A stretch of 36,973 nt of DNA from Alcanivorax sp. (GTDB taxonomy: Bacteria > Pseudomonadota > Gammaproteobacteria > Pseudomonadales > Alcanivoracaceae), in NCBI RefSeq assembly GCF_014762765.1, contig NZ_JABURH010000152.1, positions 1-36,973 of the forward strand, in the 5' to 3' direction. The translations under genes and the position numbers were made by a program. This document shows, in pieces, positions 6,314 to 33,657 of this stretch. Numbering within the stretch: the first letter of the stretch is position 1; the number at the start of each line of letters is the position of its first letter. Under the pieces are notes generated by a model, which had not been told where the DNA came from, did no database searches, and was given only the letters and a program-made list of their open reading frames with translations.

Positions 6314-6469
6314 TTGATAGTTGAAAATGGATAATTGATAACTCGCGAAGCTCTTTCGTCATAGATTCAAATGATAGAGGCCGCGCCCATTGGTTGGGCG
6401 CGGCCTCTTACGTTGAATACAAGAAAACGTTTATCGCGAAGTTATCAATTATCCATTCTCAATTATCAA
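6314..6469. repeat. Heptad-armed stem-loop element 1 (TTGATAA type)
   Basis: Left arm: four 7-base units of type TKGANAR at 6314-6341, then CTCGCG. Right arm: CGCGAAG at 6435 followed by inverted units to 6469. The arms pair over about 30 bp with few mismatches. In the middle, 6376-6389 and 6395-6408 form a perfect 14-bp hairpin of the shared core (AGAGGCCGCGCCCA) with a 5-base loop. The element fills the gap between the convergent araC-type and ABC permease genes. The permease stop codon (6466-6468) is the TGA inside a right-arm unit. It could act as a bidirectional terminator. Confidence 0.85.
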
Positions 6470-7233
6470 CTCTTCAATCGATATCCTGTCCGGAAAATCC
6501 ACCACACCAGCGCGATACAGATCGCCAGGAAGAACAGGGTCATGCCGATGCTGATGCCGATGTGTACGTCGGCGCTGCCGAAGAAGCTGTAACGGAAACC
6601 ACTGATCAGGTAGACCACCGGGTTGAACAGGGTCACTGTTTGCCAGAATGTTGGCAGCATGTCGATGGAATAGAAGCTGCCGCCCAGGAAGGTCAGCGGG
6701 GTAATGATCATCAGGGGAATGATCTGCAATTTCTCGAAGGTATCCGCCCAGATGCCGATAATGAACCCGAACAGGCTGAAGGTAATCGCGGTAAGCAGCA
6801 GGAAGCCGAACATCATGAAGGGATGCTGAACCTCATAGTCCACAAAGAATCGCGCCGTGATCAATATCAAAACGCCCAGTATCGATGACTTGGTCGCGGC
6901 TGCTCCCACATAACCGATGACGATCTCCACATAGGAGACCGGCGCTGACAGCACCTCATAGATCGTGCCCGAAAACGTGGGCATGTAGATACCGAACGAG
7001 GCATTGGAAATGCTCTGTGTCATCAGGGTAAGCATGATCAGGCCGGGAATAATAAACGCCCCGTAACTGACGCCGCCAATTTCCACCATGCGCGAACCAA
7101 TGGCGGAGCCGAACACCACAAAGTACAGGGACGTGGAGATCACCGGTGAGGCCACGCTCTGCATCAGGGTGCGCCAGGTACGCGCCATTTCGAACTTGTA
7201 GATGGCGCGAATGGAATAAATATTCAGTTTCAT
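6466..7233 (-). CDS. ABC-2 type transporter permease (YadH-like)
   Basis: The 255-residue protein has six hydrophobic segments and the ABC-2 family signature region ([20 protein letters not shown] followed by [12 protein letters not shown]), close in length and order to E. coli YadH. It forms the membrane channel of an exporter with the ATPase encoded just upstream; the genes overlap by 4 bases (ATGA), implying translational coupling. Substrate is unknown; drug or cell-envelope lipid/glycan export are usual for the family. The last residues are encoded within heptad element 1, so the element reaches into the coding end. Confidence 0.92.
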
Positions 7234-8198
7234 CGGGCCTCTCCGGCTGGGGTGGCGTTTTCCGTGGCGGGCTGGCCGTTGTGGACCAGGTCCACAAAGA
7301 TATCTTCCAGGGAACTCTGTCGGGAATGCAGATCCTTGAACTCGATGCCCGCCGCATTCAATGCCCGCAGCAGCTCGGCAATGCCGGTGCTTTCCTGGTT
7401 GGCATCATAGGTATAAATCAGCCCATAGCCGTCGTCCGACAAGGCCAGCGCATCGCTGCCCAGACCGGCTGGCAGACTTTCCAGGGGTTCGGCCAAATGT
7501 ACGGTGAGTTGCTTGCGACCCAGCTTCTGCATCAGACGGGCCTTGTCATCCACCAGGATAATTTCTCCCTGGCGGATAATACCCACCCGGTCTGCCATCT
7601 CCTCGGCTTCCTCGATGTAATGGGTAGTCAGGATAATCGTCACGCCCTGTTCGCGGAGCTGGCGCACCATCTCCCACATTTCCCGGCGCAACTCCACATC
7701 CACCCCGGCAGTAGGCTCATCCAGAAACAGGATCTTGGGTTCGTGGGACAGTGCCTTGGCAATCATCACCCGCCGCTTCATGCCGCCGGACAGCATCATG
7801 ATCTTGTTGTCCCGCTTGTCCCACAGGGACAGCACCTTCAGAACCTTCTCGATATGGGCATCGTTACGGGGTTTGCCAAACAGGCCCCGGCTGAAGCTCA
7901 CCGTATCCCAGACCGTCTCGAAGGCATCGGTTGACAGTTCCTGGGGCACCAACCCGATGGCGGAGCGTGCTTCACGGTAATCGCGCACAATGTCGTAGCC
8001 GTCCGCCAGCACGGTGCCACTGGAAGGATTGACGATGCCACAGATGATGCTGATCAGGGTGGTCTTGCCGGCACCGTTGGGGCCCAGAAGAGCAAAGATC
8101 TCTCCGGCGTGAATATCCAGATTGATGTTCTTCAGGGCCTGAAAGCCGCCCTGATAGATCTTGTTCAGGTCTTTCACGGAAATGACAGCACTCACCAC
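7230..8198 (-). CDS. ABC transporter ATP-binding protein (YadG-like)
   Basis: This is a 322-residue ATPase with Walker [10 protein letters not shown], signature LSGGMKRR, Walker B ILFLDEP and the H-loop histidine in [12 protein letters not shown]-terminal extension of about 90 residues is typical of DrrA/YadG-type exporters. Two GTG codons stand in tandem at 8198 and 8195; the ribosome site AAAGGAG fits the second better (6 bases rather than 3), giving a product starting at residue 2. It powers the ABC-2 permease downstream. It is divergent from soxR, so control by SoxR is possible but unproven. Confidence 0.93.
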
Positions 8199-8303
8199 TT
8201 TCTCCTTTGTTGGACCTGTGAGCAGGCTGTTGAAAAGCCCGCCTCATTATGCCCGAAATAAATGTCTCTCGCTGGCGCTCACGAGCAGAATTTGACAGCA
8301 TAA

Positions 8304-8325
8304 GACCTGAAGTTTGGTTAAGGTC
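8304..8325 (+). promoter_or_regulatory. Candidate SoxR/MerR operator upstream of soxR
   Basis: The 22-base site has perfect outer half-sites GACCT and AGGTC, with inner AA and TT also symmetric. It lies 25 bases before the soxR start, in the region divergent from the ABC exporter. MerR-family regulators bind such spaced dyads within stretched promoters. The match to the usual SoxR box is only partial. Confidence 0.45.
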
Positions 8326-8350
8326 AAAGCACGCATTGAAGGAATTCACC

Positions 8351-8800
8351 ATGACCCTCACCTGTGCAGACGATATCCACAAGGCACTCACCGTGGGCGA
8401 GGTCGCCGAACGCAGCGGCGTGGCTGTTTCCGCCCTGCATTTCTATGAAAAAAAGGGCCTTATTCAGAGCTCACGCAGTGCCGGCAATCAGCGCCGCTAT
8501 CATCGCGATGTGCTGCGCCGGGTGGCGGTGATCAAGGTTGCGCAGCGTATCGGTATACCGCTGGCGGAGATTGCCGAGGCCCTGGCCGAGCTGCCCGATG
8601 GCCGCAGTCCCACTGCCCGCGACTGGAAACGCATGTCCGCCAAATGGCGCGGGCATCTGGACGAGCGCATCAATGATCTGACCATGCTGCGTGACCAGCT
8701 CAATGAGTGTATCGGCTGCGGCTGCCTGTCCATCAAGGCCTGCCGGCTGCGCAATCCCTTTGACTCCCTGTCCGAGGAAGGTCCAGGGCCGCATTTCTAG
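8351..8800 (+). CDS. soxR: Redox-sensing MerR-family regulator SoxR
   Basis: I choose ATG at 8351, after GAAGGAA; this gives 149 residues, the normal SoxR size, and removes a non-conserved upstream extension. The protein has a MerR helix-turn-helix ([20 protein letters not shown]), a dimerisation helix, and the SoxR cysteine cluster Cys120-x2-Cys123-x-Cys125-x5-Cys131 that holds the [2Fe-2S] cluster. Oxidation of the cluster by redox-cycling compounds or nitric oxide activates transcription. No soxS is nearby, as usual outside enterics, where SoxR directly controls exporters and oxidoreductases. The divergent ABC exporter is a natural candidate target. Confidence 0.95.
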
Positions 8801-8839
8801 AGGCTTTTCGCGCTTTCAAAGCCGCTGCCGCCTGCCCTT

Positions 8840-8853
8840 CCGACCTTGGTCGG
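8840..8853 (+). terminator. Possible soxR terminator hairpin
   Basis: A perfect 14-base palindrome (CCGACCTTGGTCGG) is followed by CATTCATTTTG. The stem is short and the T-run interrupted, so it would be a weak terminator before the isocitrate dehydrogenase gene. Confidence 0.4.
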
Positions 8854-8923
8854 CATTCATTTTGCCATCTGCAGCGGGCACAATGAGATTCCTGCAACAC
8901 CCTTTCCGCAATCAGGAGGCAGC

Positions 8924-9940
8924 ATGAACAAGAACACCGTAACCGTTATTCCCGGCGACGGAATCGGCCCGGACATCGTGGATGCCACGGTACGGGTACT
9001 GAAAGCTCTGGATTGCGGACTCGAATTCGAATACGCCATTGCCGGCCAGGCAGCACTGGACAAGGGACTGGATCTGGTACCCGAAGAGACCCTGGCGGTG
9101 CTCCGGCGCAATCGCCTGGCCCTTAAGGGGCCCATCACCACGCCTGTGGGTGGTGGCTTCACCTCAGTAAACGTAACCCTGCGCAAGACCTTCGACCTGT
9201 TCGCCAACGTGCGCCCGGCCCTGTCCATTCCCGGGGTGAAGTCCCGCTATGACAACGTGGACATCATGACCGTACGGGAGAATATCGAAGGCATTTATTC
9301 CGGACTGGGCCAGACCGTCAGCGAGGATGGCGAAACCGCCGAACTGCGCAGCCGCATCACCCGCACCGAGTCCGAACGCCTGCTGCGCTTTGCCTACGAA
9401 ACGGCGGTGAAACAGGGTCGCAAGAAGGTCACGGTGGTGCACAAGGCCAATATCATGAAGTCCACCTCGGGCCTGTTTCTCGATGTGGCCCGCAAGGTGC
9501 GCGAGGACTACCCGCAGCTGGAGCACGAGGAAATGATCGTGGACGCCTGCGCCATGCAGCTGGCCATGAATCCCCATCGCTTCGATGTGATCGTTACCAC
9601 CAACCTGTTCGGCGATATCCTTTCAGACCTGTGTGCCGGCCTGATCGGCGGCCTGGGCGTGGCCCCCGGCGCCAACATCGGCGAGCATGGAGGCCTGTTC
9701 GAAGCAGTCCACGGCAGCGCCCCGGACATCGCCGGCCAGGGCATCGCCAACCCCACCGCCATCATGCTGGCCGGGGCCCTGATGCTCGACTACATCGAGC
9801 TGCATGACAAGGCCAAACAATTACGTCGCACCGTGCGTCAGGTAGTCGGCGAAGGCGAAATCGTCACCCCGGATCTGGGCGGCCGCGCCAGCACCAGTGA
9901 GTTTACTGATGAGCTGGTTCGCAGGCTGGAGAAGAATTGA
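8924..9940 (+). CDS. NAD-dependent isocitrate dehydrogenase
   Basis: Start at 8924 follows CAGGAGGCAGC. The 338-residue enzyme belongs to the beta-decarboxylating dehydrogenase family: IPGDGIGP near the N-terminus, [10 protein letters not shown] at 69-78, TVREN at 116-120, and the [19 protein letters not shown] segment. The substrate loop with Ser81, Asn83 and Arg87 (SVNVTLR) is the isocitrate type, not isopropylmalate. Asp268-Ile269 (SAPDIAG) replace the Lys-Tyr pair of NADP enzymes, indicating NAD specificity. It makes 2-oxoglutarate in the TCA cycle. Its stop codon TGA is supplied by the first unit of heptad element 2. Tartrate or homoisocitrate dehydrogenase is a less likely alternative. 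Confidence 0.9.
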
Positions 9941-10100
9941 CAGTGGACAGTTGAAAGTTGACAGCTACGCGGAACAGCCATACATGTTCTGCAACGAAAG
10001 AGGCCGCGCCCAGACCATGGACGCGGCCTCTTTCGTTTTAGGCTGGCAGAACTTTGATCGCGCAGCTGTCAACTTTCAACTGTCCACTGTCAATTATCAA
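9937..10100. repeat. Heptad-armed stem-loop element 2 (TTGACAG type)
   Basis: Four tandem 7-base units (TTGACAG, TGGACAG, TTGAAAG, TTGACAG) occupy 9937-9964, followed by CTACGCG. The reverse complement of 9937-9966 recurs without error at 10064-10093, a perfect 30-bp inverted repeat. The core hairpin is 9993-10008 with 10022-10037 (16 bp). It lies between convergent genes, and both stops are inside the arms: the isocitrate dehydrogenase TGA at 9938-9940 and the hemH TGA (complement of 10097-10099). Confidence 0.9.
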
Positions 10101-11191
10101 CTATCTTCCGCGCCTTGTTGGCGGGCCCGTTGTTGGCGTTCGTTCAGGCCGACCGCATCATTTTCCGGCAGCTCCCAGCCCTGAAGATTCTCTTCAATCA
10201 GCTGGACCAGCGCATCAATATGGCCGGGCTCTGCATTCAGTGCCGGGATGTAGGCAAACGACTCACCGCCAGCCTCCTCGAAGTACCCCCGGTTTTCCAC
10301 GTCGATTTCTTCCAGCGTTTCCAGGCAGTCAGAGGAAAAGCCGGGGCAGAACACCTGCACGGATTTCACACCCTGCTCTGGCAGCGCCATCAGGGTGTGG
10401 TCGGTGTAGGGCTTCAGCCATTCCTCACGGCCAAAGCGGGACTGGAAGGTAGTGAGCCAGTCGTCGTCGCCCAGGCCCAGCCGCTCCGCCAGCAGCCGCG
10501 AGGTCTTGTGGCATTCACAGAAGTAGGGGTCGCCATTAAGCAGGTATTTTTTCGGCACACCGTGGTAGCTGAAGATCAGCTTGTCCGCCGTACCGTGTTC
10601 GGCACGAAACGCCTCGATGTGGTTGGCCATGGCCTCGATGTAGGGCGGGTAATCCGGGTAGTGGCTGATAAAGCGCAGATCAGGCAACCAGCGCCGTTGC
10701 ATGAAGTCCTTGGCAATGGCGTCAAAGGTGGAAGCATTGGTGGACGCGGAATACTGCGGGTACAAGGGCAGCACCACCAGCTTGCGCACCCCCGCCTCTT
10801 CCATGGCCTGCAACTGGCTGGTGATGGAAGGATTCCCGTAACGCATGGCAAAGCGGACGTCGATGTCGTCACCGAATTTGTTCTGCAACCGCTCGCGGAT
10901 GCCAGCACACTGGGCTTGGGTGTGCACCATCAGCGGCGAGCCCGCCTCCGTCCAGACGCTTTTGTAAGCATGGGCAGAACGGGGCGGGCGGATCACCAGA
11001 ATCACCAGGTGGAGAATGAAGAACCAGATCAAGCGGGGGACTTCCACCACCCGCGGATCGGAGAGGAATTCACGCAGATAGCGGCGCAGGGCGCCGGTCT
11101 CCGGCGCATCCGGGGTCCCCAGGTTGGTGATCAGCACCCCCAGCCTCTGCGCCTGGCGGTGATCAAAGTTCTGTTGTCCCTGATAAGCCAT
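10097..11191 (-). CDS. hemH: Ferrochelatase
   Basis: This 364-residue protein catalyses insertion of ferrous iron into protoporphyrin IX, the last step of heme synthesis. It has GVLITNLGTPDAP at the start, the LPLYPQYS segment, the catalytic His210 in FSYHG, and the FCPGFSSDCLETLEEI motif with the acidic residues of the active site. N-terminal PRVVEVPRLIWFFILH is also typical of gammaproteobacterial HemH. The start has an acceptable ribosome site (GAGGAA). It appears monocistronic; the last codons run into heptad element 2, and the C-terminal tail is rich in Gln and Arg. Confidence 0.97.
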   Translation of the reverse strand: MAYQGQQNFDHRQAQRLGVLITNLGTPDAPETGALRRYLREFLSDPRVVEVPRLIWFFILHLVILVIRPPRSAHAYKSVWTEAGSPLMVHTQAQCAGIRERLQNKFGDDIDVRFAMRYGNPSITSQLQAMEEAGVRKLVVLPLYPQYSASTNASTFDAIAKDFMQRRWLPDLRFISHYPDYPPYIEAMANHIEAFRAEHGTADKLIFSYHGVPKKYLLNGDPYFCECHKTSRLLAERLGLGDDDWLTTFQSRFGREEWLKPYTDHTLMALPEQGVKSVQVFCPGFSSDCLETLEEIDVENRGYFEEAGGESFAYIPALNAEPGHIDALVQLIEENLQGWELPENDAVGLNERQQRARQQGAEDS

Positions 11192-11218
11192 CCGTTCCTC
11201 GCTGCCATTACGTTAAGC

Positions 11219-11288
11219 GATCAGTATGGCCGATAGTGTAGCGTGGCAACGTCAAGGTAACAGGCGCGCCATGCCTATCGGTCTGATC
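11219..11288. terminator. Interrupted inverted repeat downstream of the thioesterase gene
   Basis: GATCAG (11219-11224) pairs with CTGATC (11283-11288), and CCGATAG (11230-11236) pairs with CTATCGG (11275-11281). The repeat encloses about 40 bases between the thioesterase stop and the hemH start. It may form an imperfect terminator or a regulatory fold ahead of hemH; there is no clear T-run. Confidence 0.3.
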
Positions 11289-11299
11289 AAAGTCGGAAA

Positions 11300-11707
11300 T
11301 TAGAGGGTTTCCGCCAGAGGCCCCTGATGCTCGGCGAGGACCTGGCGAAACGCCTCGGGGATTGGCGCCGAGGCCTGCTTGTCATGCTCGAAGTAGACCT
11401 GCACCGCCTTGCCACGGGCCACCAGCTTGCCGTTCTGCCAGGCCTGCTGGGCCACCACGAAGGAGCTGTTGCCGATTTTCTCGATGCCGGTGCGTAACAG
11501 TACATCGCTGCCGTAATAAATCTGGCCGACAAAATCCACTTCCACCCGGGCCAGAATCAAGGGCAGGGACGCCGGGTCACTGCCACCCCCGAACAATTGA
11601 AACAGGGGCGTCCGCCCGGTTTCGAACCAGCCGGTGACCACAGTGTTGTTCACATGACCAAAGGCATCGGTTTCGTAAAAGCGGGGCGTGACAGTGAGCT
11701 CAAACAT
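11300..11707 (-). CDS. Acyl-CoA thioesterase, 4-hydroxybenzoyl-CoA thioesterase (hotdog) family
   Basis: The 135-residue protein has the single hotdog fold size and the motif ETDAFGHVNN, with catalytic Asp14 followed by GHVN as in YbgC/4HBT enzymes. A VDFVGQIYYGSDVLLRTGI segment forms the central strands. It would hydrolyse short or medium acyl-CoA in the cytoplasm; the exact substrate is unknown. It lies downstream of the lipoprotein gene at 11789 with an 81-base gap that contains a GC hairpin. Confidence 0.88.
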   Translation of the reverse strand: MFELTVTPRFYETDAFGHVNNTVVTGWFETGRTPLFQLFGGGSDPASLPLILARVEVDFVGQIYYGSDVLLRTGIEKIGNSSFVVAQQAWQNGKLVARGKAVQVYFEHDKQASAPIPEAFRQVLAEHQGPLAETL

Positions 11708-11730
11708 GGCGGTTATCTCATCAGGACTGC

Positions 11731-11759
11731 GGGGGCGTCATGATACCCGAGACGCCCCC
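11731..11759. terminator. GC-rich hairpin between lipoprotein and thioesterase genes
   Basis: GGGGGCGTC (11731-11739) pairs perfectly with GACGCCCCC (11751-11759), leaving an 11-base loop. No T-run follows on either strand, so it may stabilise or attenuate the minus-strand transcript rather than terminate it fully. Confidence 0.4.
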
Positions 11760-11788
11760 GGCCCTGAATATTGACTCTCAGGCTTGAG

Positions 11789-12559
11789 TCATTCACCACG
11801 CAGGCTGGCCAGGGCGTTTTTGCGACGCTCAACCTCTTCGCCAAGGCTGTCGCGGGCCGCCTCCTGCTCTTCCACCCGCTCAATCAGGGCCTCCACCTCC
11901 TGGCTGGCCTTCTCCATGGGCTCACCAAGTCCACCGACGGCTTCGGCGTTTTCTTCCAGCACTGCCAATTCAGCGCGCGCCGCCATCAATTGCACCTGTA
12001 TCTGGCGCAGGGTGTGATCTGCCTCGGCCATGGCGGACAGGCTGTCATCCAGTTTGCCCTGCAGCTCCTCTTCCAGATCGGCAAATTCATCACTGTCTTC
12101 AGCAATGACCTGCCAACCCTCGAAGCGTTGTTCGAAGTGTTCCGCTACCATGCCGCGGGGCAAGGCCTGCTCATCCAGGGTGGTCACCACGTTCTCTTGA
12201 TCATTGCCACGAATGATCTGCACTGAGGCCGTCAACTCTCGCTCCTCACCTTCCGCCAGTGCCGTACGAGTCACCACACGCTTGCCGATGTCATCCACAT
12301 AACGAACCTCACGCAGTGGCTTCTCCAGGGTCAGCACTGCCTCCACTTTGTAGGTCGTAATTTCTTCCGGGCCGGTGCTGTCCTGGCGCTGATCCTGGAT
12401 ATCCAGATCGTCTACCTGCCAATAGCCCAGGTCGCGAGTCTGCAAGGCCTGATTGATGGCTGCCGCCAGACGCTTTTCTTCACTGTTCATACCGCAGCTG
12501 ACCAACCATGCCGCCGCCAAAAACAGACCGATAACCGCTACGCCTCGTTTCAATGACAT
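11789..12559 (-). CDS. Uncharacterised lipoprotein with C-terminal coiled coil
   Basis: The start (12559) follows AGGAGGAAGGGCG. The 256-residue product has a signal peptide ending in lipobox VSCG (Cys22), a central part of about 130 residues predicted to be beta-rich, and a C-terminal stretch of about 90 residues with heptad-like Leu, Glu and Ala (from EEELQGKLDDSLSAMAEA to the end), probably a coiled coil. I do not recognise the family. The acidic residue after the lipobox Cys is absent (Gly-Met), so sorting to the outer membrane is plausible. Confidence 0.75.
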   Translation of the reverse strand: MSLKRGVAVIGLFLAAAWLVSCGMNSEEKRLAAAINQALQTRDLGYWQVDDLDIQDQRQDSTGPEEITTYKVEAVLTLEKPLREVRYVDDIGKRVVTRTALAEGEERELTASVQIIRGNDQENVVTTLDEQALPRGMVAEHFEQRFEGWQVIAEDSDEFADLEEELQGKLDDSLSAMAEADHTLRQIQVQLMAARAELAVLEENAEAVGGLGEPMEKASQEVEALIERVEEQEAARDSLGEEVERRKNALASLRGE

Positions 12560-12689
12560 CGCCCTTCCTCCTTGCGCGTTTCAATATGGGAATCCCAATC
12601 TGCCCTATAGTATGCACGGTAAGAGCCCGGCGTCGACGCCCGCCATTTGCAGCCCGTATCATGATTGCATCCATTTGCAGGAGAAGCCC

Positions 12690-12992: not shown

Positions 12993-13157
12993 AAGCGGCA
13001 AGTTTCAGGCTGAAACACGAGCAGGGCTGTGCTATTTGACCTCAACCCTGCCCGCGCTTTCAGTGTTGTTTATCCCGTTACCGCGCGAAGTCGTGCCTTT
13101 CCCGGTTATCACAGAAATCTCTTCGCGTTGTAGCTTGCAGCTTGTTACTTGAAGCTT
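12993..13157. repeat. Heptad-armed element 8 (degenerate, different core)
   Basis: Units AAGCGGC and AAGTTTC begin right after the TAA stop at 12990-12992, continue to 13013 and end in AACACG. The right arm, 13124-13157, read on the minus strand, has AAGCTTC, AAGTAAC, AAGCTGC, AAGCTAC and AACGCG. Arm pairing is poor. The shared GC core is missing; instead GCAGGG (13021-13026) faces CCCTGC (13046-13051). It lies between convergent genes and looks like an eroded or independently formed member of the family. Confidence 0.6.
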
Positions 13158-13162
13158 TTAAC

Positions 13163-13180
13163 GGCGGCCCACAGGCCGCC
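13163..13180. terminator. GC hairpin downstream of the choice-of-anchor I gene
   Basis: GGCGGCC (13163-13169) pairs perfectly with GGCCGCC (13174-13180) around a 4-base loop, 20 bases beyond the stop codon on the minus strand. It is followed there by GTTAAAAGC, so any intrinsic termination is probably weak. Confidence 0.45.
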
Positions 13181-13199
13181 TCGATATGGCTAACGAAAA

Positions 13200-15298: not shown

Positions 15299-15323
15299 CA
15301 CCGGAAGAAACCAGACCAAGGGG

Positions 15324-18041: not shown

Positions 18042-18049
18042 ATAACCTG

Positions 18050-18667: not shown

Positions 18668-18930
18668 TGTCGTAGGAGCCCCTCTCGAGGGGCGAAGCGG
18701 GAAAAAGGTGGAACGCTGGTCAGGTAGCAATCCTTTCAGGAAAGACCTGTAGAGCTCGGAAATTCCTGATCGCCCTGGGGACGATTTCCGCGCAAGCGCG
18801 GTTCGCCCCTCGAGAGGTATTATTCGCTTCGCTCACCCTTCGGGCCGCACGGAACTACGCGCGTTACTCCGCTGCGCTACGTTCCTACAGCGGCTTCGTG
18901 GAAATTCCAAAGTCTTGGGAAATTTCCACC
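18668..18930. repeat. REP/BIME-like palindromic cluster between tetR and FMO2
   Basis: This 302-base convergent gap holds no gene. CCTCTCGAGGGGCGAA (18681-18696) is repeated as a perfect inverse at 18802-18817. A CGTAGGAGC-type head at 18670 faces an inverted ACGTTCCTACAG at 18880-18891, as in pseudomonad REP sequences. GTGGAAATT (18898-18906) pairs with AATTTCCAC (18921-18929) just before the FMO2 stop. Several smaller hairpins (CGCGCAAGCGCG; GCGCGTTACTCCGCTGCGC) lie between. The heptad units and GC core of the other elements are absent, so this is a different repeat class. Confidence 0.65.
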
Positions 18931-23306: not shown

Positions 23307-23313
23307 ACACCGT

Positions 23314-24982: not shown

Positions 24983-25139
24983 AAGCTGCAAGCCTAAAGC
25001 TACAACGCGCCAGAAATTGGTATTGAACGAAAACGCAGGAGGCCGCGCTCAAGCTCTGAGCGCGGCCTCCTGCGTTTACTGCCAGCCACCACACCGCGCT
25101 GTAGCCTGTAGTTAGGCTTTTGGGCTTTCAGCTTTCAAC
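24983..25139. repeat. Heptad-armed stem-loop element 3 (AAGCTNC type)
   Basis: Units AAGCTGC, AAGCCTA and AAGCTAC (24983-25003) then AACGCG begin directly after the TAA stop at 24980-24982. The right arm (25095-25139) has the same kind of units inverted but about six of them, so arm pairing is partial. The core is the strongest in the window: 25031-25051 pairs perfectly with 25057-25077, a 21-bp stem with a 5-base loop. It should terminate transcription of the nitronate monooxygenase-like gene. The downstream gene is in the same direction here. Confidence 0.85.
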
Positions 25140-25199
25140 TGCTTCTCCCCACCAACCGCGTTACCATGAGGTTATCTCCTGAGGATAAGGAGAAGTCTG

Positions 25200-26405: not shown

Positions 26406-26550
26406 GTTGCAAGTTTCAAGTTACAACGCGCCAACGCTTTTCCTGAACCTGAAATGCAAGAGGCCGCGCCCAAGTCATGGGCGCGGCCTCTTGCCTGGCG
26501 GCTGGCGGCAGCCTGGCTCGCGTTGCAACTTTCAACTTGAAACTTGCAAC
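26406..26550. repeat. Heptad-armed stem-loop element 4 (TTGCAAG type)
   Basis: Left units TTGCAAG, TTTCAAG and TTACAAC run from 26407 to 26427, followed by GCG, one base after the upstream TGA stop (26403-26405). The right arm (26519-26550) contains the same units inverted plus one extra unit, TTGAAAG, so arms differ by exactly one 7-base unit. The core stem is 26456-26472 with 26478-26494, 17 bp perfect with a 5-base loop. It fills the convergent gap between the beta-rich protein and almA, whose stop is 7 bases beyond the right arm. Confidence 0.9.
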
Positions 26551-26556
26551 CCCCAA

Positions 26557-28056
26557 TCAGGCTCCGAGCAGGGACGCCACCAACCCTTTCTTCTTCACCG
26601 GCTGGTAATTGCTGAATTCCAGCACACCATCATCAATGGCGCCATAGCGCAGCTTGGGCAGGTCCACCAGATAGTTTTGCACTACCATCCAGGGCTGCTT
26701 GGAACCCTGCCGTGGCAGACGATCATCGGCACGCATGACATAGCCGGACTCCAGACCCAGGAAGTTCTCTTCGGTAATGCAATTATCCTTGTCTCGCGGG
26801 ATCACCGTTGTGGCACCGGTTTTTTCCATGTGGTTCAGCAGGCGACATACATACTCGCACACCAGATCCGCTTTCAGGGTCCAGGAGGAATTGGTATAGC
26901 CGAATACCAGCGCCATGTTCGGCACATCACGCAGCATCATGCCCTTGTAGACCAGTGATTCGCGAGGCTCTACGGCCTTGCCATCGATGGTACCTTCCAC
27001 GCCACCCAGCATCTGAACATTCAGCCCGGTGGCGGTGATGATGATGTCCGCCTCCAGCTCCTGACCGGACTTGAGCAGAATACCGTTCTCGGTGAAACGC
27101 TCGATATGATCGGTAACGATATCGGCCTCACCCCGACGCACGGTCTTGAACAAGTCGCCATTGGGCACCGCACACAGACGCTGATCCCAGGGATTATAGT
27201 TGGGGCGGAAATGGGTCATATCCACATCATCGCCAAGCTGGCGTTTGGCCGCCGCCAGCAAGGCGCGACGCACCAGTTTTGGACGCTGCTTGGACAGCTT
27301 GTACACCAGGCGCTGCAGACCGATATTCCGGGCACGGGACAGCTTGTAGACCAGCATATCCGGCAAGAAACGGCGCATACCCACGGAAATCGGGTCCACT
27401 TCCGGCACGGTGGCAATATAGGTGGGCGACCGCTGCAGCATGGTCACCTCTGCCCCTTCTTTGGCCATTGCAGGCACCAGCGTTACGGCGGTGGCACCGG
27501 AACCAATAACCACCACCTTCTTGCCCTTGTACTGCAGATTTTCCGGCCAGTGCTGCGGATGAACGATCTGGCCCTTGAAGTCTTTTTCGCCGGGGAAATC
27601 CGGTTTGTAGCCTTCGTCGTAGTTGTAATAACCACTGCAGGAGAACAGGAAGTTCGCGGTAAAGGTTTCCTGCTCACCGGTTTTCTCATTGGTGGTTTCC
27701 ACGACCCATTGATTGTCATCACTGGACCAGTTCGCCTTGACCACCTTGCGCCCGAAGCGGATGTGCTTCTTGACGTCATATTCGTCCGCCGTGTCTTCCA
27801 CGTACTGACGAATGGAAGGGCCATCCGCCAGCACCTTGGGATCGGTCCAGGGACGGAAGCTGTAGCCCAGGGTGAACATGTCGGAATCGGAACGGATACC
27901 CGGGTACTTGAACAGATCCCAGGTGCCACCAATGCGTTCGCGACGTTCCAGAATGGCATAGCTGCGATTCGGGCTCTTGCGGGTCAGATGGCAAGCTGCC
28001 CCGATACCGGAAAGGCCGGCACCAATAATCAATACATCAACGTGGTTATTAGACAT
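26557..28056 (-). CDS. almA: AlmA-like flavin-binding long-chain alkane monooxygenase
   Basis: The 499-residue protein starts at 28056 with a strong ribosome site (GGAGGT). It resembles Acinetobacter AlmA throughout: VDVLIIGAGLSGIGAACHL, ERRERIGGTWDLFKYPGIRS, FAD motif GAGLSG (12-17), FxGxxxHxxxWP fingerprint at 160-171, NADPH motif GSGATA (185-190), and TATGLNVQMLGG. AlmA oxidises long-chain n-alkanes (about C20 to beyond C32) in Acinetobacter and Alcanivorax. The orthology call rests on remembered family sequences; a related ketone monooxygenase cannot be excluded. It is monocistronic, with a possible operator at 28105-28122. Confidence 0.82.
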   Translation of the reverse strand: MSNNHVDVLIIGAGLSGIGAACHLTRKSPNRSYAILERRERIGGTWDLFKYPGIRSDSDMFTLGYSFRPWTDPKVLADGPSIRQYVEDTADEYDVKKHIRFGRKVVKANWSSDDNQWVVETTNEKTGEQETFTANFLFSCSGYYNYDEGYKPDFPGEKDFKGQIVHPQHWPENLQYKGKKVVVIGSGATAVTLVPAMAKEGAEVTMLQRSPTYIATVPEVDPISVGMRRFLPDMLVYKLSRARNIGLQRLVYKLSKQRPKLVRRALLAAAKRQLGDDVDMTHFRPNYNPWDQRLCAVPNGDLFKTVRRGEADIVTDHIERFTENGILLKSGQELEADIIITATGLNVQMLGGVEGTIDGKAVEPRESLVYKGMMLRDVPNMALVFGYTNSSWTLKADLVCEYVCRLLNHMEKTGATTVIPRDKDNCITEENFLGLESGYVMRADDRLPRQGSKQPWMVVQNYLVDLPKLRYGAIDDGVLEFSNYQPVKKKGLVASLLGA

Positions 28057-28104
28057 TCTCTTTTACCTCCAGCCCTTGGGCCGCCTGGTCTTGGCAGTGC
28101 AAAA

Positions 28105-28122
28105 CATTGACATCATTCAATG
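28105..28122. promoter_or_regulatory. Candidate operator upstream of almA
   Basis: CATTGACATCATTCAATG has perfect 6-base inverted arms around a 6-base centre, about 50 bases before the almA start. No known regulator box is recognised. A regulator of alkane metabolism could bind here. Confidence 0.4.
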
Positions 28123-28190
28123 GCACCGTTAACTGGCAGACAGAATAGCCGTACTGGCGGGTATGAGAAAAGGCCAAAACAGGCCGTTAA

Positions 28191-28736
28191 TTGGCCCTGG
28201 AGACGGGAAAAAGTGCCGCTAGGGACGGCAAGCATGGCGCAGCCAGCATAAACACTGGATCTACTTTCACTGACCGCCTGTCTACCCGCATGGTGGCTGC
28301 GGGGTTGGCGAGCGGCTGTTACTCGCTGATCTTCATCATAAAGTGGTACGACCGGTCCAATATCATGGTGCTATCACCGATTTGTGACCTCATACACATT
28401 GCTGCCCTGCTCACTTCTGCATACTGCCTGCGCGCCATAGGGGAAAGGCGCTTATGGGGATGGAGTACACACTATAATTATAAGGGTACCGGCATGTTCG
28501 ATCTGACTGCCTTCGGGGATACGTTCGCCTCTCACTCCTGGCTGTGGATACCAATTTTCTGCGCCGCCACTATCAGTCTGCTGCTATGGAGCGGTCGCAT
28601 CCGCCAGCCCGCAATCGTTAATTTCTTCGCCATCGGCCTGATCCTGCCCTGCATCAACCTGAGCATGATCGCCACCGGCGCGCTGGTAGCGGCAGATCAG
28701 TTGACTCTGGATCTGATGGCATTGATGCCGTTTTGA
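28191..28736 (+). CDS. Uncharacterised membrane protein
   Basis: The frame begins at TTG 28191; an internal ATG at 28290 would give 148 residues starting just before the first membrane segment. Neither start has a clear ribosome site, so the true start is uncertain. The rest has about four hydrophobic segments (SGCYSLIFIIKWY; ICDLIHIAALLTSAYCLRA; WLWIPIFCAATISLLLW; IVNFFAIGLILPCINLSMIA) and a Ser/Tyr/Trp-rich loop. I do not recognise the family. The frame ends 4 bases before heptad element 5, as with other real genes here, which supports its reality. Confidence 0.55.
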   Translation: MALETGKSAARDGKHGAASINTGSTFTDRLSTRMVAAGLASGCYSLIFIIKWYDRSNIMVLSPICDLIHIAALLTSAYCLRAIGERRLWGWSTHYNYKGTGMFDLTAFGDTFASHSWLWIPIFCAATISLLLWSGRIRQPAIVNFFAIGLILPCINLSMIATGALVAADQLTLDLMALMPF

Positions 28737-28740
28737 GAGT

Positions 28741-28891
28741 GGCAAGTTACAAGTTTCAAGTTGCAACGCGCCATAAACTTATCCTTGATTTTAAAAACAT
28801 GAGGCCGCGCTCCAATCAATGGGCGCGGCCTCATGCGTTACGGTCAGCAGCGGCACTAATTCGCGTTGCAACTTGAAACTTGCAACTTGCC
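28741..28891. repeat. Heptad-armed stem-loop element 5 (TTGCAAG type)
   Basis: Left arm 28741-28770 and right arm 28862-28891 pair over 30 bp with one mismatch; units are TTACAAG, TTTCAAG and TTGCAAC ending in GCG. The core stem is 28798-28812 with 28821-28835 (15 pairs, one a G-T pair) and an 8-base loop. It spans the convergent gap between the membrane protein (stop 28734-28736) and the alpha/beta hydrolase, whose stop codon starts 4 bases past the right arm. Confidence 0.9.
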
Positions 28892-28895
28892 CGCC

Positions 28896-29780
28896 CTACA
28901 AGCCCTGAAGAAATTCCAGCTGATCCGCCAGACTGATATCCTTGGCCTCGCCCTGATAGATATCGAAATGACCAACCGGATAGCGCTTCACTGTCGCTTT
29001 CGCCATGGCAGCAGCGGCCTTTTCAGCGGCAGAAGCCGGCGCCACGGTATCGGTTTCACAAATCAGCACCAACGCCGGACAGCTCACCTTTGCCGCCTGC
29101 GCCACCGGGCGAAACATGGGCAGTACCAGACCAATACGGGCAGCCACTTCATTGGGAACTCCCGCCGGCATCAGCGCGGTATAACCGTCGTAGGCATCAT
29201 GGCTGGACATCGCCGCCAGCTCCCCGGGCTTGCCCGCAGATGGCAACATGCGCGGCCCCAGCCCCAGCACGCTGCTGATCACATCCCAGAGCCCCAGCCC
29301 GGTCATCTTAAGTGCTTGACCGATACCTGCATAGCGCACCACTTCCAGCACAGATGCCAGTCCGTCCATCATTGGGCACTGGGCAATGATGCCGGCCACA
29401 TCCGGCTCACGGGCTGCCACGGCAGTCACCAGGCCGCCACCAAAAGACGTTCCCCACAGTACAATACGCTGGTTGTCCACTTGCTCTTGCTTGCGTACAC
29501 AGGCCAGCGCCGCCTGCCAGTCCGCCACTTCCCGGTTGGGCAACAGCACCTGGCGTGGCATTCCTTCACTCTCACCGAAGTGCCGGTAGTCGAACAGAAA
29601 CACCGCATGGCCGGCCTTTAAAAAGGCATCCCGAAACGGCTCCAGCCCACAGGCCTTGGTGAGGCCAAAACCATGGCCCATGATCACGGTCAGGAAGGGG
29701 CCATCGCCATCGGGCAGGTACAGATCCCCGCGGCAGGACTGGCCATCGCTGACAAATCTCAGTTCACGGATTGTGCTCAT
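28896..29780 (-). CDS. Alpha/beta hydrolase (serine hydrolase, dienelactone/peptidase S9-like)
   Basis: I choose ATG at 29780, after AAGGAG; the frame is open to 29825. The 294-residue enzyme has the nucleophile elbow GTSFGG with Ser112, acid Asp244 (ICETDTVAP) and His271 (VGHFDIY), a full catalytic triad, plus the oxyanion segment MGHGFGLT. It is probably an esterase or thioesterase acting on a small hydrophobic ester; the substrate is not known. It lies 45 bases downstream of cysQ on the same strand, so co-transcription is likely. Confidence 0.87.
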   Translation of the reverse strand: MSTIRELRFVSDGQSCRGDLYLPDGDGPFLTVIMGHGFGLTKACGLEPFRDAFLKAGHAVFLFDYRHFGESEGMPRQVLLPNREVADWQAALACVRKQEQVDNQRIVLWGTSFGGGLVTAVAAREPDVAGIIAQCPMMDGLASVLEVVRYAGIGQALKMTGLGLWDVISSVLGLGPRMLPSAGKPGELAAMSSHDAYDGYTALMPAGVPNEVAARIGLVLPMFRPVAQAAKVSCPALVLICETDTVAPASAAEKAAAAMAKATVKRYPVGHFDIYQGEAKDISLADQLEFLQGL

Positions 29781-29802
29781 GGAAACTCCTTGGTTTTTTT
29801 GC

Positions 29803-29816
29803 GTCAGACGTCTGAC
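29803..29816. other. Perfect 14-base palindrome between cysQ and the hydrolase gene
   Basis: GTCAGACGTCTGAC is a perfect palindrome in the 45-base gap. It may bind a dimeric regulator or form a tiny hairpin; on the minus strand it is followed by A-runs, so it is not a terminator. Confidence 0.3.
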
Positions 29817-29825
29817 TTCCGACAT

Positions 29826-30638
29826 TCACCCAATCGCCGGGGCGATAAAGCGCCACTCTTCGATGCTCTGCCCCAACACCAGGAAGTGCGGATTGAGAAT
29901 GTCTTCCTTGTTGTACTGCAACGGCTCAAAGGCGGTATTGACCACAACGCCACCGGCAGCGGTCACCACCGCGTGTGCCGCAGCAGTGTCCCATTCAGAG
30001 GTGGGCGCCAGACGGGGATAAATGTCTGCGCTGCCCTCGGCAACCAGACACAACTTCAGGGACGAGCCCATGGAGGCCCGCTCCACCTCGCCCACTTCCT
30101 GGCGGATAAAGGCTTCCAGCTTTTCCACCGCTTCGCCGCCGTGGCTGCGACTGGCCACCATCACCACTGGAGTGGTACGGGCACGACACTGGATCGGTTT
30201 GCGCTCACCCTTTTCCTCTTTAAAGGCACCGACACCGCGGCCGCCCAGATAGGTCACCGCCGTTACCGGCACATGCACCACCCCCAGTACCGGGGTATCC
30301 CCTTCCACCAGGGCAATGTTCACGGTGAACTCGCCGTTGCGCTTGATGAATTCCTTGGTGCCATCCAGCGGGTCCACCAACCAGAAACGGGGCCAGTTCT
30401 TGCGATCCGCGTAGGCAATACCGCCAGATTCTTCGGAAAACACCGGGATATCCGGCGTCAGCGCCTGCAGCCGCGCCTCGATGATCTTGTGCGCGGCCAT
30501 ATCCGCTTCGGTGATCGGCGACTTGTCGTCCTTGGTTTCCACACCCAGGTCATCACGCTCGTACACCGTCAGAATGGCATCACCCGCTTCACGGGCAATC
30601 TCTGCGAGCGGTTCCAGCAGGGTATTAAAGTCGGTCAT
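29826..30638 (-). CDS. cysQ: 3'(2'),5'-bisphosphate nucleotidase
   Basis: Start at 30638 follows AGGAAA; the frame opens earlier but within the repeat-rich gap. The 270-residue enzyme belongs to the inositol monophosphatase-like superfamily: KSPITEADMAAH, EESG, the metal site DPLDGTKEFI, and WDTAAAHAVVTAAGG at the C-terminal end, as in CysQ. It converts 3'-phosphoadenosine 5'-phosphate to AMP, recycling the by-product of sulfate assimilation. It is transcribed in the same direction as nudE, but heptad element 7 separates them, so it probably has its own promoter or is attenuated. Confidence 0.92.
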   Translation of the reverse strand: MTDFNTLLEPLAEIAREAGDAILTVYERDDLGVETKDDKSPITEADMAAHKIIEARLQALTPDIPVFSEESGGIAYADRKNWPRFWLVDPLDGTKEFIKRNGEFTVNIALVEGDTPVLGVVHVPVTAVTYLGGRGVGAFKEEKGERKPIQCRARTTPVVMVASRSHGGEAVEKLEAFIRQEVGEVERASMGSSLKLCLVAEGSADIYPRLAPTSEWDTAAAHAVVTAAGGVVVNTAFEPLQYNKEDILNPHFLVLGQSIEEWRFIAPAIG

Positions 30639-30667
30639 TTCGTTTTTCCTATCGTTCAACATTGGGA

Positions 30668-30932
30668 GCAACAAGCCTCAAGCTACAAGCTGCAACACGG
30701 AGACACGCCAGCGGTACTTGCTGCCCCGTTACTCCGCGCTGCGAGTCAAGAAGATTCGCGAGCACCGTCATACAGAACAACAGGGCCTCAAATCGCGCCT
30801 TATAACCAGGCTTCTGGAACCTGCCCTCAATCACTTGCAGACAAGCTCCCCCAAATTATCAGCGCGGAGCCCATTGGTTTCAGCCCGCTCTTCTCATTTC
30901 CCCGCGTTGCAGCTTGAAGCTTGTAGCTTGCC
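30668..30932. repeat. Heptad-armed element 7 (CTNCAAG type, long, different core)
   Basis: Left units of type CTNCAAG lie at 30668-30696; the right arm (30906-30932) has them inverted, with one 7-base unit more than the left between otherwise matching ends. There is no shared GC core. Instead CTCCGCGCTG (30732-30741) pairs perfectly with CAGCGCGGAG (30860-30869) across 118 bases. It occupies the cysQ-nudE gap of about 295 bases, with the nudE stop one base beyond. No gene is seen here. Confidence 0.75.
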
Positions 30933-30933
30933 T

Positions 30934-31479
30934 CTATCTTTTCTCCAGCAACCGCTTGGCCATCAGCAGCGCCGCGATCACCCGGGCTTCGGTCACGTCG
31001 TCCCGCTCGATCAGGCGATCCAGGTCGGACAGTTTCCAGGTGAGTACTTCCAGTTCTTCCGGTTCGTCCCCGGGCAGGGATTCTTCATACAGGTCTTCGG
31101 CCAGCACCACCTTGATGCGGTGGCCCATATAACCCGGCGACAAGGTCATGTCCTTCATCAGGGTGAGTCGACGGGCACCGTAACCAGCCTCTTCCTTTAA
31201 TTCCCGGTTGGCCGCATCGCGCCAGTCCTCACCGTGTTCGTAGGCACCCTTGGGCAGTGTCAGCTCATAACTTTCGGTGCCGGCACCATACTCGCGGATC
31301 ATCACCACGGTGTCGTCATCCAGCAGCGGCACCATCATTACCGCCGCAATGGGTGGGGTGCGCAGGCGCTCATAGGTGCGCTCCACCCCGTTGCGAAAAC
31401 GCAGGTGCAACTCTTCAATCCCGAACAGCCGGCTTTTCGCCACCAGTCGGGTGTCGAGAATCTCCGGTTTCTCATCCAT
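30934..31479 (-). CDS. nudE: Nudix hydrolase, ADP-compounds hydrolase NudE
   Basis: The 181-residue protein carries the Nudix box: Gly in LPKGAYEHGEDW followed by NRELKEEAGYG, i.e. G-x5-E-x7-R-E-x2-E-E-x-G. The rest (FRNGVERTYERLRTPP before, LSPGYMGHRIKVVLAEDLYEE after) resembles E. coli NudE, which hydrolyses ADP-ribose, NADH and Ap3A. Its place beside yrfG-hslR-hslO-pckA, as near this set in E. coli, supports the call. It is divergent from yrfG with a 61-base gap. Confidence 0.85.
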   Translation of the reverse strand: MDEKPEILDTRLVAKSRLFGIEELHLRFRNGVERTYERLRTPPIAAVMMVPLLDDDTVVMIREYGAGTESYELTLPKGAYEHGEDWRDAANRELKEEAGYGARRLTLMKDMTLSPGYMGHRIKVVLAEDLYEESLPGDEPEELEVLTWKLSDLDRLIERDDVTEARVIAALLMAKRLLEKR

Positions 31480-31540
31480 AATTGGAATCAGCTCTCACGC
31501 TATTTAAGGCCGAAGACTAACCCGAATACGCAGGAAATTC

Positions 31541-32194
31541 ATGATTGACTGGCATTCTGTCGACACCGTGTTACTGGATATGGACGGCACCCTGCTCGAC
31601 CTGGAGTTCGACAACTGGTTCTGGCAGAAACATGTCCCTGAGTGCTACGCCCGCCAACAGGGCCTGGACCGGGCCGAGGCCGACCGCATCATTCACGACT
31701 GGATCACCAGCCATCTGGGCACTCTGAACTGGTACTGCCTGGACTTCTGGACCGCGGAGCTGGGCCTGGAAATCGCCCGCCTGAAACGCGAAGCCGGCGA
31801 TCGTATCGCCGTGCGCCCCGGGGCGGACACGTTTCTACAGGCACTGAAGGAGTCCGACAAACAGGTCATCATGGTCACCAACGCCCATCGTGATGCTCTG
31901 GATTTGAAGGTGGAGCGTACCGGCATCGACCGCTATTTCGATGAAATCGTCTCCAGCCACGATTATGGCCACGCCAAGGAAGCCCAGTCGTTCTGGCAGC
32001 ACCTGCAACGTCACCTGCCCTTCGACCCGGCCCGCGCTCTGCTGGTGGATGACTCACTGCCGGTACTTCACAGCGCCCAGCTTTACGGCATCGGCCAGCC
32101 GGTGAGCATCCTGCATCCGGATTCCAGTCTGCCCAAGCGGGACCATACCGATCCGTTCCCGGCCATCGACGATTTTCTGCAGGTACTGCCGTGA
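31541..32194 (+). CDS. yrfG: HAD-family GMP/IMP nucleotidase YrfG
   Basis: The 217-residue protein is a haloacid dehalogenase-like phosphatase: motif I DMDGTLLDL with Asp13 and Asp15, motif II VTNA, the cap insertion (FWQKHVPECYARQQGLDRAE), and motif IV LLVDDSLPVL. E. coli YrfG hydrolyses GMP and IMP. It is the first gene of a yrfG-hslR-hslO run; its stop overlaps the hslR start by 4 bases (GTGA), implying coupled translation. The start follows GCAGGAAATTC. Confidence 0.9.
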   Translation: MIDWHSVDTVLLDMDGTLLDLEFDNWFWQKHVPECYARQQGLDRAEADRIIHDWITSHLGTLNWYCLDFWTAELGLEIARLKREAGDRIAVRPGADTFLQALKESDKQVIMVTNAHRDALDLKVERTGIDRYFDEIVSSHDYGHAKEAQSFWQHLQRHLPFDPARALLVDDSLPVLHSAQLYGIGQPVSILHPDSSLPKRDHTDPFPAIDDFLQVLP

Positions 32195-32580
32195 GCGAAA
32201 CCGTTCGTATCGATTCCTGGCTGTGGGCGGCCCGCTTCTTCAAGACCCGCAGCCTGGCCAAGGCCGCCATTGAAGGCGGCAAGGTACAGATCGATGGCAG
32301 CAAGGCCAAACCCAGCAAGAATGTACAGCCCGGGCAGACCATCGCCATCACCAAGGGCACGGAACATTTCGAGGTAATAGTAGAAGGCCTGAGCAGCAAG
32401 CGCGGCCCCGCCAGCGTAGCCCAGACCCTTTATCAGGAAACCGAACAAAGCCGTAACCGCCGGGAACAGAACAGCGAGCAACGCAAGCTGGCACGGGCCG
32501 CCGCAGCAGCACCGGACCACAAGCCCAGCAAGAAGGAACGCCGGGATATCCAACGCTTCAAGAGAGACAACCTGGAATAA
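32191..32580 (+). CDS. hslR: Ribosome-associated heat shock protein 15
   Basis: The 129-residue protein begins at GTG, overlapping the yrfG stop. It has an S4 RNA-binding domain (VRIDSWLWAARFFKTRSLAK; GKVQIDGSKAKPSKNVQPG) and a basic C-terminal tail. Hsp15 binds 50S subunits that carry nascent chains after abortive translation and helps ribosome recycling. The gene order with hslO downstream matches E. coli. Confidence 0.94.
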   Translation: MSETVRIDSWLWAARFFKTRSLAKAAIEGGKVQIDGSKAKPSKNVQPGQTIAITKGTEHFEVIVEGLSSKRGPASVAQTLYQETEQSRNRREQNSEQRKLARAAAAAPDHKPSKKERRDIQRFKRDNLE

Positions 32581-32598
32581 CCGCTATCGCGCCCCCAT
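32572..32598 (+). promoter_or_regulatory. hslO: Candidate sigma32 (heat shock) promoter for hslO
   Basis: CTGGAA (32572-32577) and CCCCAT (32593-32598) are separated by 15 bases. The sigma32 consensus is CTTGAA, 13-15 bases, CCCCAT. The site overlaps the hslR stop and precedes hslO by about 55 bases, which fits a heat-inducible hslO. Confidence 0.55.
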
Positions 32599-32652
32599 TA
32601 AAGGCAGCAGAAAGACATAGCGAACCACAGTGACAGCCCTCAGGACACAACC

Positions 32653-33510
32653 ATGCAAGATCACAAACAACGTTTCCTGTTCCCCGACTCCGATATCCGC
32701 GGCGAACTGGTGCAGGTAGAAAGCAGCGTCACCCGTATTATTGAAGGGCATAACTACCCGCTGGCAGTACAAGGGTTGATCGGCGAGGCGGTGGCCGCCG
32801 TGGCATTACTGGCCAGCACCCTGAAATTCAAGGGACGTCTGGCACTGCAGGCCCAGGGCAAGGGCCCGGTATCCCTGCTGCTGGCCGAGTGCACCAACGA
32901 GGGTGAGTTGCGCGCCCTGGCCCGTCACAGCGACGGCCAGGACTGGAGCCATGGCGACATCCAGACCCTGATCGGCGACGGCAACATGGTGATCACCATC
33001 ACCCCGGACCAGGGCAAGCAATATCAGGGCATCGTCCCCCTGGCCGGTGACTCTCTGGCCCAGTGCCTGGAAGCCTACTTCCGCCAGTCCGAGCAGCTCC
33101 CCACCCGTCTTTGGCTGGCCAGCGGCAACAATCGGGCCGCCGGCCTGCTGCTGCAGCGGCTGCCCAACCAGTTGGCCAGCAGCGACGCCAACACACAGAT
33201 GTGGGAGCACCTGGAAGCCCTCGCTGGCACCCTGAAAATGGAAGAGCTGCTCAACCTGGACGACCAGACCATCCTTCACCGGCTGTTCCACGACACCCCG
33301 CCGCAACTCCCCGAGGCCCAGGCCCTGCAGTTCGGCTGCACCTGCTCCCGGGACCGCAACCGCAATGCCCTGATCTCCCTGGGCAGCAACGAGTTGCAGA
33401 TACTGCTCGACGAGGACGGCGAAGTGACCCTGACCTGCGATTTCTGCCGCAACCGGGAGCGGTTTGATGCGGTGGATCTGGCGGGGATGATTAAAGAAGT
33501 TGTCAGTTGA
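32653..33510 (+). CDS. hslO: Redox-regulated chaperonin Hsp33
   Basis: The 285-residue protein has the Hsp33 N-terminal domain ([39 protein letters not shown]) and the zinc-binding redox switch Cys229-x-Cys231 and Cys262-x2-Cys265 near the C-terminus. In reducing conditions zinc holds it inactive; under oxidative stress with unfolding the cysteines form disulfides and it acts as a holdase. Start follows CAGGACACAACC. The last codons and the TGA stop (33508-33510) lie inside the first units of heptad element 6. Confidence 0.97.
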
Positions 33511-33657
33511 TAGTGGACAGTTGACAGCTACGCGGGTTAGCCGTGGCACACATTTCACCGCAAGAGGCCGCGCTCAAGGTTTGGGCGCGGCCTCTTGCAC
33601 TTCAAAACCTGATGAGCCGGACCGCGACGCTGTCAACTGTCCACTATCAACTGTCAA
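33500..33657. repeat. Heptad-armed stem-loop element 6 (TTGACAG type)
   Basis: Units TTGTCAG, TTGATAG, TGGACAG and TTGACAG tile 33500-33527 without gaps, followed by CTACGCG. The sequence 33504-33528 has a perfect 25-bp inverse at 33629-33653. The core stem (33560-33577 with 33581-33598) is 18 bp including one G-T pair. It overlaps the hslO stop, which is the TGA of the second unit. The pckA leader lies downstream, so it should insulate pckA from the hslO transcript. Confidence 0.9.

Follow-up and report, generated by a model that had tools for sequence, protein, structure and literature searches.

Heptad-armed palindromes at gene ends of Alcanivoracaceae, probably spread and flipped through their inverted repeats

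Eight gaps between the genes of an Alcanivorax sp. contig (NZ_JABURH010000152.1, assembly GCF_014762765.1) hold stem-loop elements framed by tandem 7-base units. Do these elements belong to a described repeat family, how did they come to be so alike, and what may they do at the gene ends where they stand? The window analysed here is the whole stretch of 36,973 nt; its own genome (G000) comprises 3.52 Mb in 211 contigs. By comparing sequences we established the plan of the element, its spacing, its siting at stop codons, the flipping, replacement and copying of its interior, the dialects of its units and their gain and loss in 7-base steps. We interpret the elements, with moderate confidence, as gene-end palindromes whose heptad inverted repeats allowed them to spread and to flip, and which probably act as two-way RNA 3'-end hairpins.

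Plan and range of the element

The element is a palindrome of about 160 bases framed by tandem 7-base units. From the outside inwards it consists of about three to five ARYTNNN units, CGCG, a spacer of about 33 nt, a CCGCG..CGCGG hairpin, a second spacer, CGCG and the same heptads inverted. In the eight window gaps the boundary after the arms was CGCG, or else ACGCG or CACG. A preliminary description of this DNA had reported heptad arms in eight gaps, and both ends were armed in all eight. It had written the unit as YTNNNAG; the 7-base unit held, but ARYTNNN is the better form, and ARYT is its own reverse-complement class, so that both strands show it. The GC hairpin that it had found common to six elements, GAGGCCGCGCNCA..TGNGCGCGGCCTC, was recovered at 6377, 25039, 26460 and 33564 and, slightly altered, at 10000 and 28801. 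The inverted arms measured 30-39 nt at 6314, 9937, 28741, 30668 and 33500 and 17 nt at 26406. Scanned strictly for inverted arms of 7-base periodicity, the window gave five clusters, and each of 60 shuffles gave none.

Elements were collected with an arm-pair detector that requires arms which are complementary and show some 7-base period, ends like CGCG and a spacing of 78-112, so that agreement, period and spacing counts from its 108 elements are selected. It recovered five of the eight window elements. Shuffles served as its control; a control with reversed sequence gave 16 hits and was not clean, because reversed elements retain their arms. Counts on gene context, spacing and arm matching include orthologs of one locus more than once. 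Three checks were free of the detector's selection, namely the CGCG spacing and the 7-base period in 25 distinct core-bearing copies and the agreement of arm families in 60 elements.

In the 25 core-bearing copies a CGCG-like tetramer stood 25-34 nt from the core on the left side and 22-30 nt from it on the right, and the spacer letters looked unrelated between loci. Their 50 flanks, unselected on arms, showed an identity of 0.71 at lag 7 and of 0.16-0.29 at other lags; the 108 detector-selected elements gave 0.73 at lag 7. The inner CGCG started 31-35 nt after the outer one in 198 of 216 half-elements. Seven of the 216 had no inner CGCG at 18-40 nt, and 25 of 216 shuffled halves had one there. 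Type I arms with an exact 21-mer on both sides mostly faced each other at 120-126 bp, and two pairs stood 509-511 bp apart.

The family extends beyond the window in many copies: the window's own genome holds 22 exact core sites, and one relative, G206, holds 100 type III half-sites. The window itself matched named Alcanivorax contigs at about 92% across several kb, in keeping with the preliminary description's pointer to Alcanivorax. We scanned one genome per species of 84,980 species, possibly without the window's own genome, for type II/III arms with CGCG at both ends. This arm-pattern scan returned at least 60 stretches, and the titles of the matches listed were Alcanivorax, Alloalcanivorax, Alcanivoracaceae or one metagenome-assembled genome called Pseudomonadales. 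The letters of the hairpin varied among these matches, and CCGCG..CGCGG was constant. Exact core hairpins were found in three of 194 genomes of the order, all three within the family. A covariance model (R1) was trained on 48 type II/III elements, 43 of them from other genomes and two (26407, 28747) from the window. It detected seven of the eight window elements strongly and the one at 30668 weakly; its matches beyond the window training copies lay at 9951, 24986, 6322, 33515 and 12996 (E 4e-17 to 2e-9). Under stricter filters this type II/III model matched four of 115 genomes of the order: the window's own, two further members of its family and one from a different family, G099, whose match (L205) was on inspection a heptad hairpin without CGCG.

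No Rfam family matched within the window at gathering score. The preliminary description had known of no described family with this plan; many copies were found, and in the literature, covered through leading search matches and few subscription journals, we did not find the CGCG-and-hairpin plan with flipping. On these sequence comparisons the elements are an Alcanivoracaceae family, new as far as our searches reach.

Several known systems share parts of the plan. REPINs, according to the sections of PMC3116915 available to us, also consist of two inverted halves around a less conserved spacer, form hairpins, are extragenic and occur in many copies. The inverted doublet with a less conserved spacer was found here as well, but heptad arms and CGCG replace the GTAG-type half, the elements do not stand beside the Y1 transposase genes examined, and interiors flip and swap. 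The GTAG/CGTC foot of a 20-40 bp palindrome, by which repetitive extragenic palindromic (REP) sequences and REPINs are recognised, was absent; CGCG stands at the arm ends and CCGCG in the hairpin. At 16 loci among the Y1 matches we found no association with the RAYT (Y1) genes. GTAG- and CGTC-tagged REPs are described as units of 20-40 bp in the accessible part of PMC3733652. They resemble our elements in lying downstream of coding regions, where the neighbouring genes are convergent or tandem, and in often forming close units of opposite orientation; they differ in their GTAG or CGTC tags, and the word "heptad" does not occur in that text.

Repeats of the heptamer TAACTGA occur in marine Beggiatoaceae, some Cyanobacteria and Bacteroidetes and, in the portion of PMC4679880 at hand, are likewise intergenic tandem 7-base units of the ARYT class with many sets per genome. 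They differ in being direct repeats, in Beggiatoa mostly just upstream of start codons, with one inverted case, and the CGCG-and-hairpin plan was not found in that portion. Our elements share the tandem 7-base intergenic units and not the direct, upstream-of-start placement. In Geobacter metallireducens the class 3 "global regulator binding sites" are five tandem MTYCTGA heptamers, mostly paired; they too are tandem heptamers, but with another unit, and the CGCG-and-hairpin plan did not appear in what was available of PMC2700814. The present family ties in with intergenic repeats of 7 bases that have been reported here and there from unrelated bacteria, where the period is explained, within the portions consulted, only by a slippage proposal cited in PMC4679880.

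Orthologous sites and unit dialects

Orthologous sites were located through their flanking genes and gave 40 ortholog pairs at 18 loci. Ten loci were scored decisively, five with a flip and five with the same orientation only; three had unrelated interiors only and five were undecided. The interior was thus inverted relative to the flanking genes at five of the ten decisive loci, the window loci 28741 and 33500 included. At 28741 the interior lies one way in G000 and G207 and the opposite way in G196, G197 and G208 (score -14 for the same orientation and +19.5 for the inverted one; 20,000 shuffled pairs reached at most 8.5); L164 (G205) also carries the latter orientation, by reading and not by score. 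At 33500 the scores were -5.5 for the same orientation vs 42 for the inverted one, and in L104 the interior and part of the arms were inverted. The remaining flips scored 2.5 vs 38 (L036/L039), -2 vs 18 (L047/L056) and -5.5 vs 16.5 (L079/L094). As a sixth flip, the element of the L017 locus was found reversed in G203 at 90% identity. The flips were seen across species whose flanks were 72-98% identical.

Interiors were also replaced and copied. One locus of constant orientation (L052/L078/L081) had unrelated interiors in L054 and L066. The second element of L046/L068 had unrelated interiors between flanks of 89% identity, and the copy in L068 (DP30) resembled, inverted, a neighbouring element about 950 bp away. 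The copies in L001, L040 and L017 (two contigs, own genome) were alike from arm to arm and shared nothing evident outside. Chloroplast genomes show hairpin-associated small inversions, in which short loops between the inverted repeats of intergenic stem-loops flip between species. To our knowledge these do not form a dispersed family with heptads, and they belong to a different genetic system.

The units occur in dialects, such as AAGTT in type II and AAGCT in type III, and species differ in their use. Half-sites of types II and III numbered 59 and 8 in G160, 3 and 100 in G206, 2 and 63 in G204, and 37 and 49 in the window's own genome; G195 had none. At the orthologous sites L001/L031, L010/L032 and L052/L054 both arms differed in family together, and arm length differed between orthologs in steps of 7. 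According to the preliminary description the unit letters match within an element. This stood at the level of a few unit families: left and right arms agreed in family (II or III) in 57 of 60 elements, taken from 59 of the 60 arm-pattern stretches listed and leaving out L057, which matched on the minus strand only. Within one genome bin 11 of 13 agreed (Fisher p 0.02). Beyond the family level only a slight excess was left, and arm-letter covariation per element, which we considered as proof of pairing, is weak once dialect is accounted for.

The dynamics of the family are of more interest than its anatomy. Intergenic palindromes are common; in this family, related species show flips, swaps and joint arm change at orthologous sites. 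Among the leading literature matches we did not find flipping, copying and swapping described together for any repeat family. Since orthologous sites display these changes, the spread and the uniformity of a repeat become testable on standing variation.

Gene ends, transcript ends and modes of spread

Gene context was scored for 100 elements, after 8 of the 108 at locus ends had been dropped, with genes called by codon scoring. Elements lay between convergent genes in 53, between tandem genes in 43 and between divergent genes in 4 of the 100; among 484 other gaps of the same loci 82 were convergent and 106 divergent. A gene 3' end lay within 45 nt of an outer CGCG in 83 of 100 elements. Counted per side, a 3' end was within 45 nt in 123 of 200 sides and a 5' end in 20 of 200.

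The hairpin occupies the place at which two facing genes would share a terminator. A bidirectional terminator, one of the roles put forward in the preliminary description, fits this position and the T-rich tails, since among the 50 tails of the 25 core copies 28 have at least five T in the first eight bases past the core (5 of 12 in the window), but a simple terminator scan accepted only one of the six shared hairpins. We regard termination by the hairpin as plausible from the sequence, and protection of RNA 3' ends as likely as termination. The fold of element 2 as RNA had an energy of -105.8 kcal/mol (z -15.4) and that of element 6 as single-stranded DNA -53.6 (z -12.0).

Palindromes of this kind readily undergo strand switching and short-homology recombination. 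Each element, as a single strand, would fold into one long hairpin. Its heptad inverted repeats may then let the interior flip or be exchanged by strand switching or short-homology recombination, which would copy the interior between elements and keep both arms alike. Slippage may add or drop 7-base units. The inner hairpin, transcribed, probably forms a two-way 3'-end structure for termination, protection or both on the facing mRNAs.

A number of observations weigh against this proposal. Flips were observed between species, one genome per species being compared, and not within a culture. The element-less gap at locus 28741 showed no clean insertion. Elements of which one half alone is visible persist in several species at the L017 locus and in three (G196, G197 and G208) at locus 9937, where the left arm is of type V and the gap shows no right arm, so that two arms are not needed everywhere. 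An element's own arms barely matched each other better than they matched those of other elements (type III 19.8 vs 19.3 of 24, p 0.005; type II 19.7 vs 19.2 of 24, p 0.03), and for types I, IV and V the excess was not significant. No called gene 3' end lay within 45 nt in 17 of the 100 elements. As to termination, the one hairpin accepted by the scan (25075-25033) was accepted on one strand only, and the scan gave no excess over shuffles (16 vs 17.2 and 19 vs 18.1); this negative is weak, because the scan extends the stem through the paired T run. By eye, the hairpins of many copies in other species had no evident T run.

The elements might instead be maintained or moved by a putative protein, a DNA-binding or strand-exchange factor that would read ARYT every 7 bp together with CGCG, perhaps in the manner of ribbon-helix-helix heptad operators, an idea we keep for this case alone. 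Its specificity would drift between species and the arms of dozens of elements would follow, giving the dialects. We think such a factor rather unlikely; if it existed, the elements would represent gene-end cassettes of a new class, both invertible and exchangeable. A related proposal, programmed inversion by a site-specific recombinase that binds the heptads and CGCG, would account for the flips at five of ten decisive loci and the fixed CGCG spacing, and dialects changing in concert could follow the specificity of a protein. Yet flips were seen only across species, at the flank identities given above, and within element interiors the promoter scan listed a single site, at 30883-30855 in element 7, which leaves flipping with little evident to switch. 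The search for an enzyme covered Y1 transposases only. We judge programmed inversion improbable.

That the elements were mobile cassettes, as had also been suggested, is borne out in so far as interiors are copied, replaced and flipped, but neither a clean insertion with target duplication nor an enzyme was seen, the search for the latter having covered Y1 transposases only. If they were transposons resembling miniature inverted-repeat transposable elements (MITEs), the heptad arms would be terminal inverted repeats that a transposase acting in trans recognises, and the elements would hop into gene ends. The three dispersed copies that match from arm to arm between unrelated flanks would be expected, as would genomes with as many as 100 half-sites of a single type and the patchy occupation of locus 28741, where 6 of 17 genus genomes have the element, ten of the other eleven lack clear arms and the eleventh (G204) has a 67-nt gap. 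Against this, neither a clean target-site duplication nor a clean empty site was seen at the three loci read (28741, 30668, L017), conversion among existing elements would explain the copies equally well, and one transposase would have to tolerate arm letters that vary between families. No gene-sized copy was noticed among the listed arm pairs, where no systematic search was made. We consider a MITE-like origin possible but doubtful. Mobilisation by RAYT transposases as a REP/REPIN family draws on similar size, palindromic doublets, gene 3' ends and Y1 transposases in 16 of 17 genus genomes, and is very improbable nonetheless. Three- and four-unit ARYT arrays were absent from all 16 Y1 loci vs 63 and 28 of 108 elements, and on the Y1 loci examined we rejected a RAYT/REP origin. 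The loci carried GTAGGAGC in 10 of 16 cases, loose arm-end motifs in 5 of 16 and a full type II/III arm end in one (L183); the GTAG foot is missing, and at the 30668 site REP-like sequence stands in L154 and L155. Judged by their sequences, the REP-like repeats beside Y1 transposase genes in the genus are a separate family. Finally, 7-base slippage and palindrome-driven template switching may build functionless heptad hairpins at gene ends as a neutral by-product. Other families of the order do have heptad arrays of the same ARYT class that lack the CGCG plan, (AAGCTGC)n is found in long pure runs, and heptamer slippage was proposed earlier, as cited in the portion of PMC4679880 consulted. This leaves four CGCG at fixed spacing around free spacers (the 198 of 216 halves) and a conserved hairpin unexplained, and we hold it to be unlikely. 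The attC sites of integrons were discarded as well, as their consensus does not fit the arms by eye.

The window elements and neighbouring observations

Element 1 (6314..6469) lies between convergent open reading frames (ORFs) and has type I arms of GATAATT units (6314-6343 and 6440-6469), outer CGCG at 6344 and 6435 and the core hairpin at 6377-6407. Its ortholog L032 has different letters on both arms. In element 2 (9935..10095) type IV arms of TTGACAG units (9935-9971 and 10059-10095) enclose the core at 10000-10030, and the left arm contains the stop codon of the ORF 8846-9940. At this locus in G207 the flanking genes are on different contigs and the left match stops at the boundary of the element, which may mark a rearrangement or a break in the assembly. 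A left type V-like arm after a stop codon, with another or no hairpin and no visible right arm, was noted in L186-L188, L190, L192, L193, L196-L199 and L136-L138. Element 3 (12996..13160) has heptad arms at about 12999-13019 and 13124-13160 and a different centre without the shared core; it was matched by R1 from outside the training set (12996-13147, 41.3 bits, E 1.7e-9).

Element 4 (24983..25130), between tandem ORFs, has type III arms and its core (25039-25069) inside a perfect 21-bp stem; L074 has no heptads at the corresponding place. Element 5 (26406..26550), between convergent ORFs, has type II arms, outer CGCG at 26427 and 26519 and the core at 26460-26490, and its ortholog in L074 differs by one 7-base unit. 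The interior of element 6 (28741..28891; type II arms 28741-28770 and 28862-28891, core 28801-28832) is the one inverted in relatives, as is that of element 8 (33497..33660; type IV arms 33497-33535 and 33622-33660, core 33564-33594) in the relative behind L104. The atypical element 7 (30672..30930), between tandem ORFs, has type III arms at 30672-30703 and 30899-30930 and the left boundary CACG. Its arms are 195 nt apart, and R1 matched it weakly (24 bits, E 6e-5, at 30839-30926). Other species have other content at this site, the REP-like sequence GTAGGAGC included; in the promoter-side gap some relatives (L154, L155) have REP-like CCTGTAGGAGCGGC repeats, others a heptad element or neither.

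Two further structures were seen in the window. At 18681-18817 a 19-nt inverted repeat, CCTCTCGAGGGGCGAAGCG, has 99 nt between its arms, and a hairpin of 17 bp at 35441-35477, which has runs of A and of T but no heptad arms, looks like an ordinary two-way terminator and is missed by the terminator scan. Pure (AAGCTGC)n arrays were found in the window's own genome in the first 50 bases of contigs C70 and C157 and on C202 (6278-6315), and also in G043 (C18), G162 (C16) and G410 (C12); as two of the arrays open a contig, the assembly may have broken there or the repeats may be unstable. AAGCTNC heptad arrays lacking the CGCG plan were noted in L112, L118, L119 and L131, which come from other families of the order, and in L134 from the window's own genome; they apparently follow directly on stop codons and flank ordinary terminators or make short hairpins.

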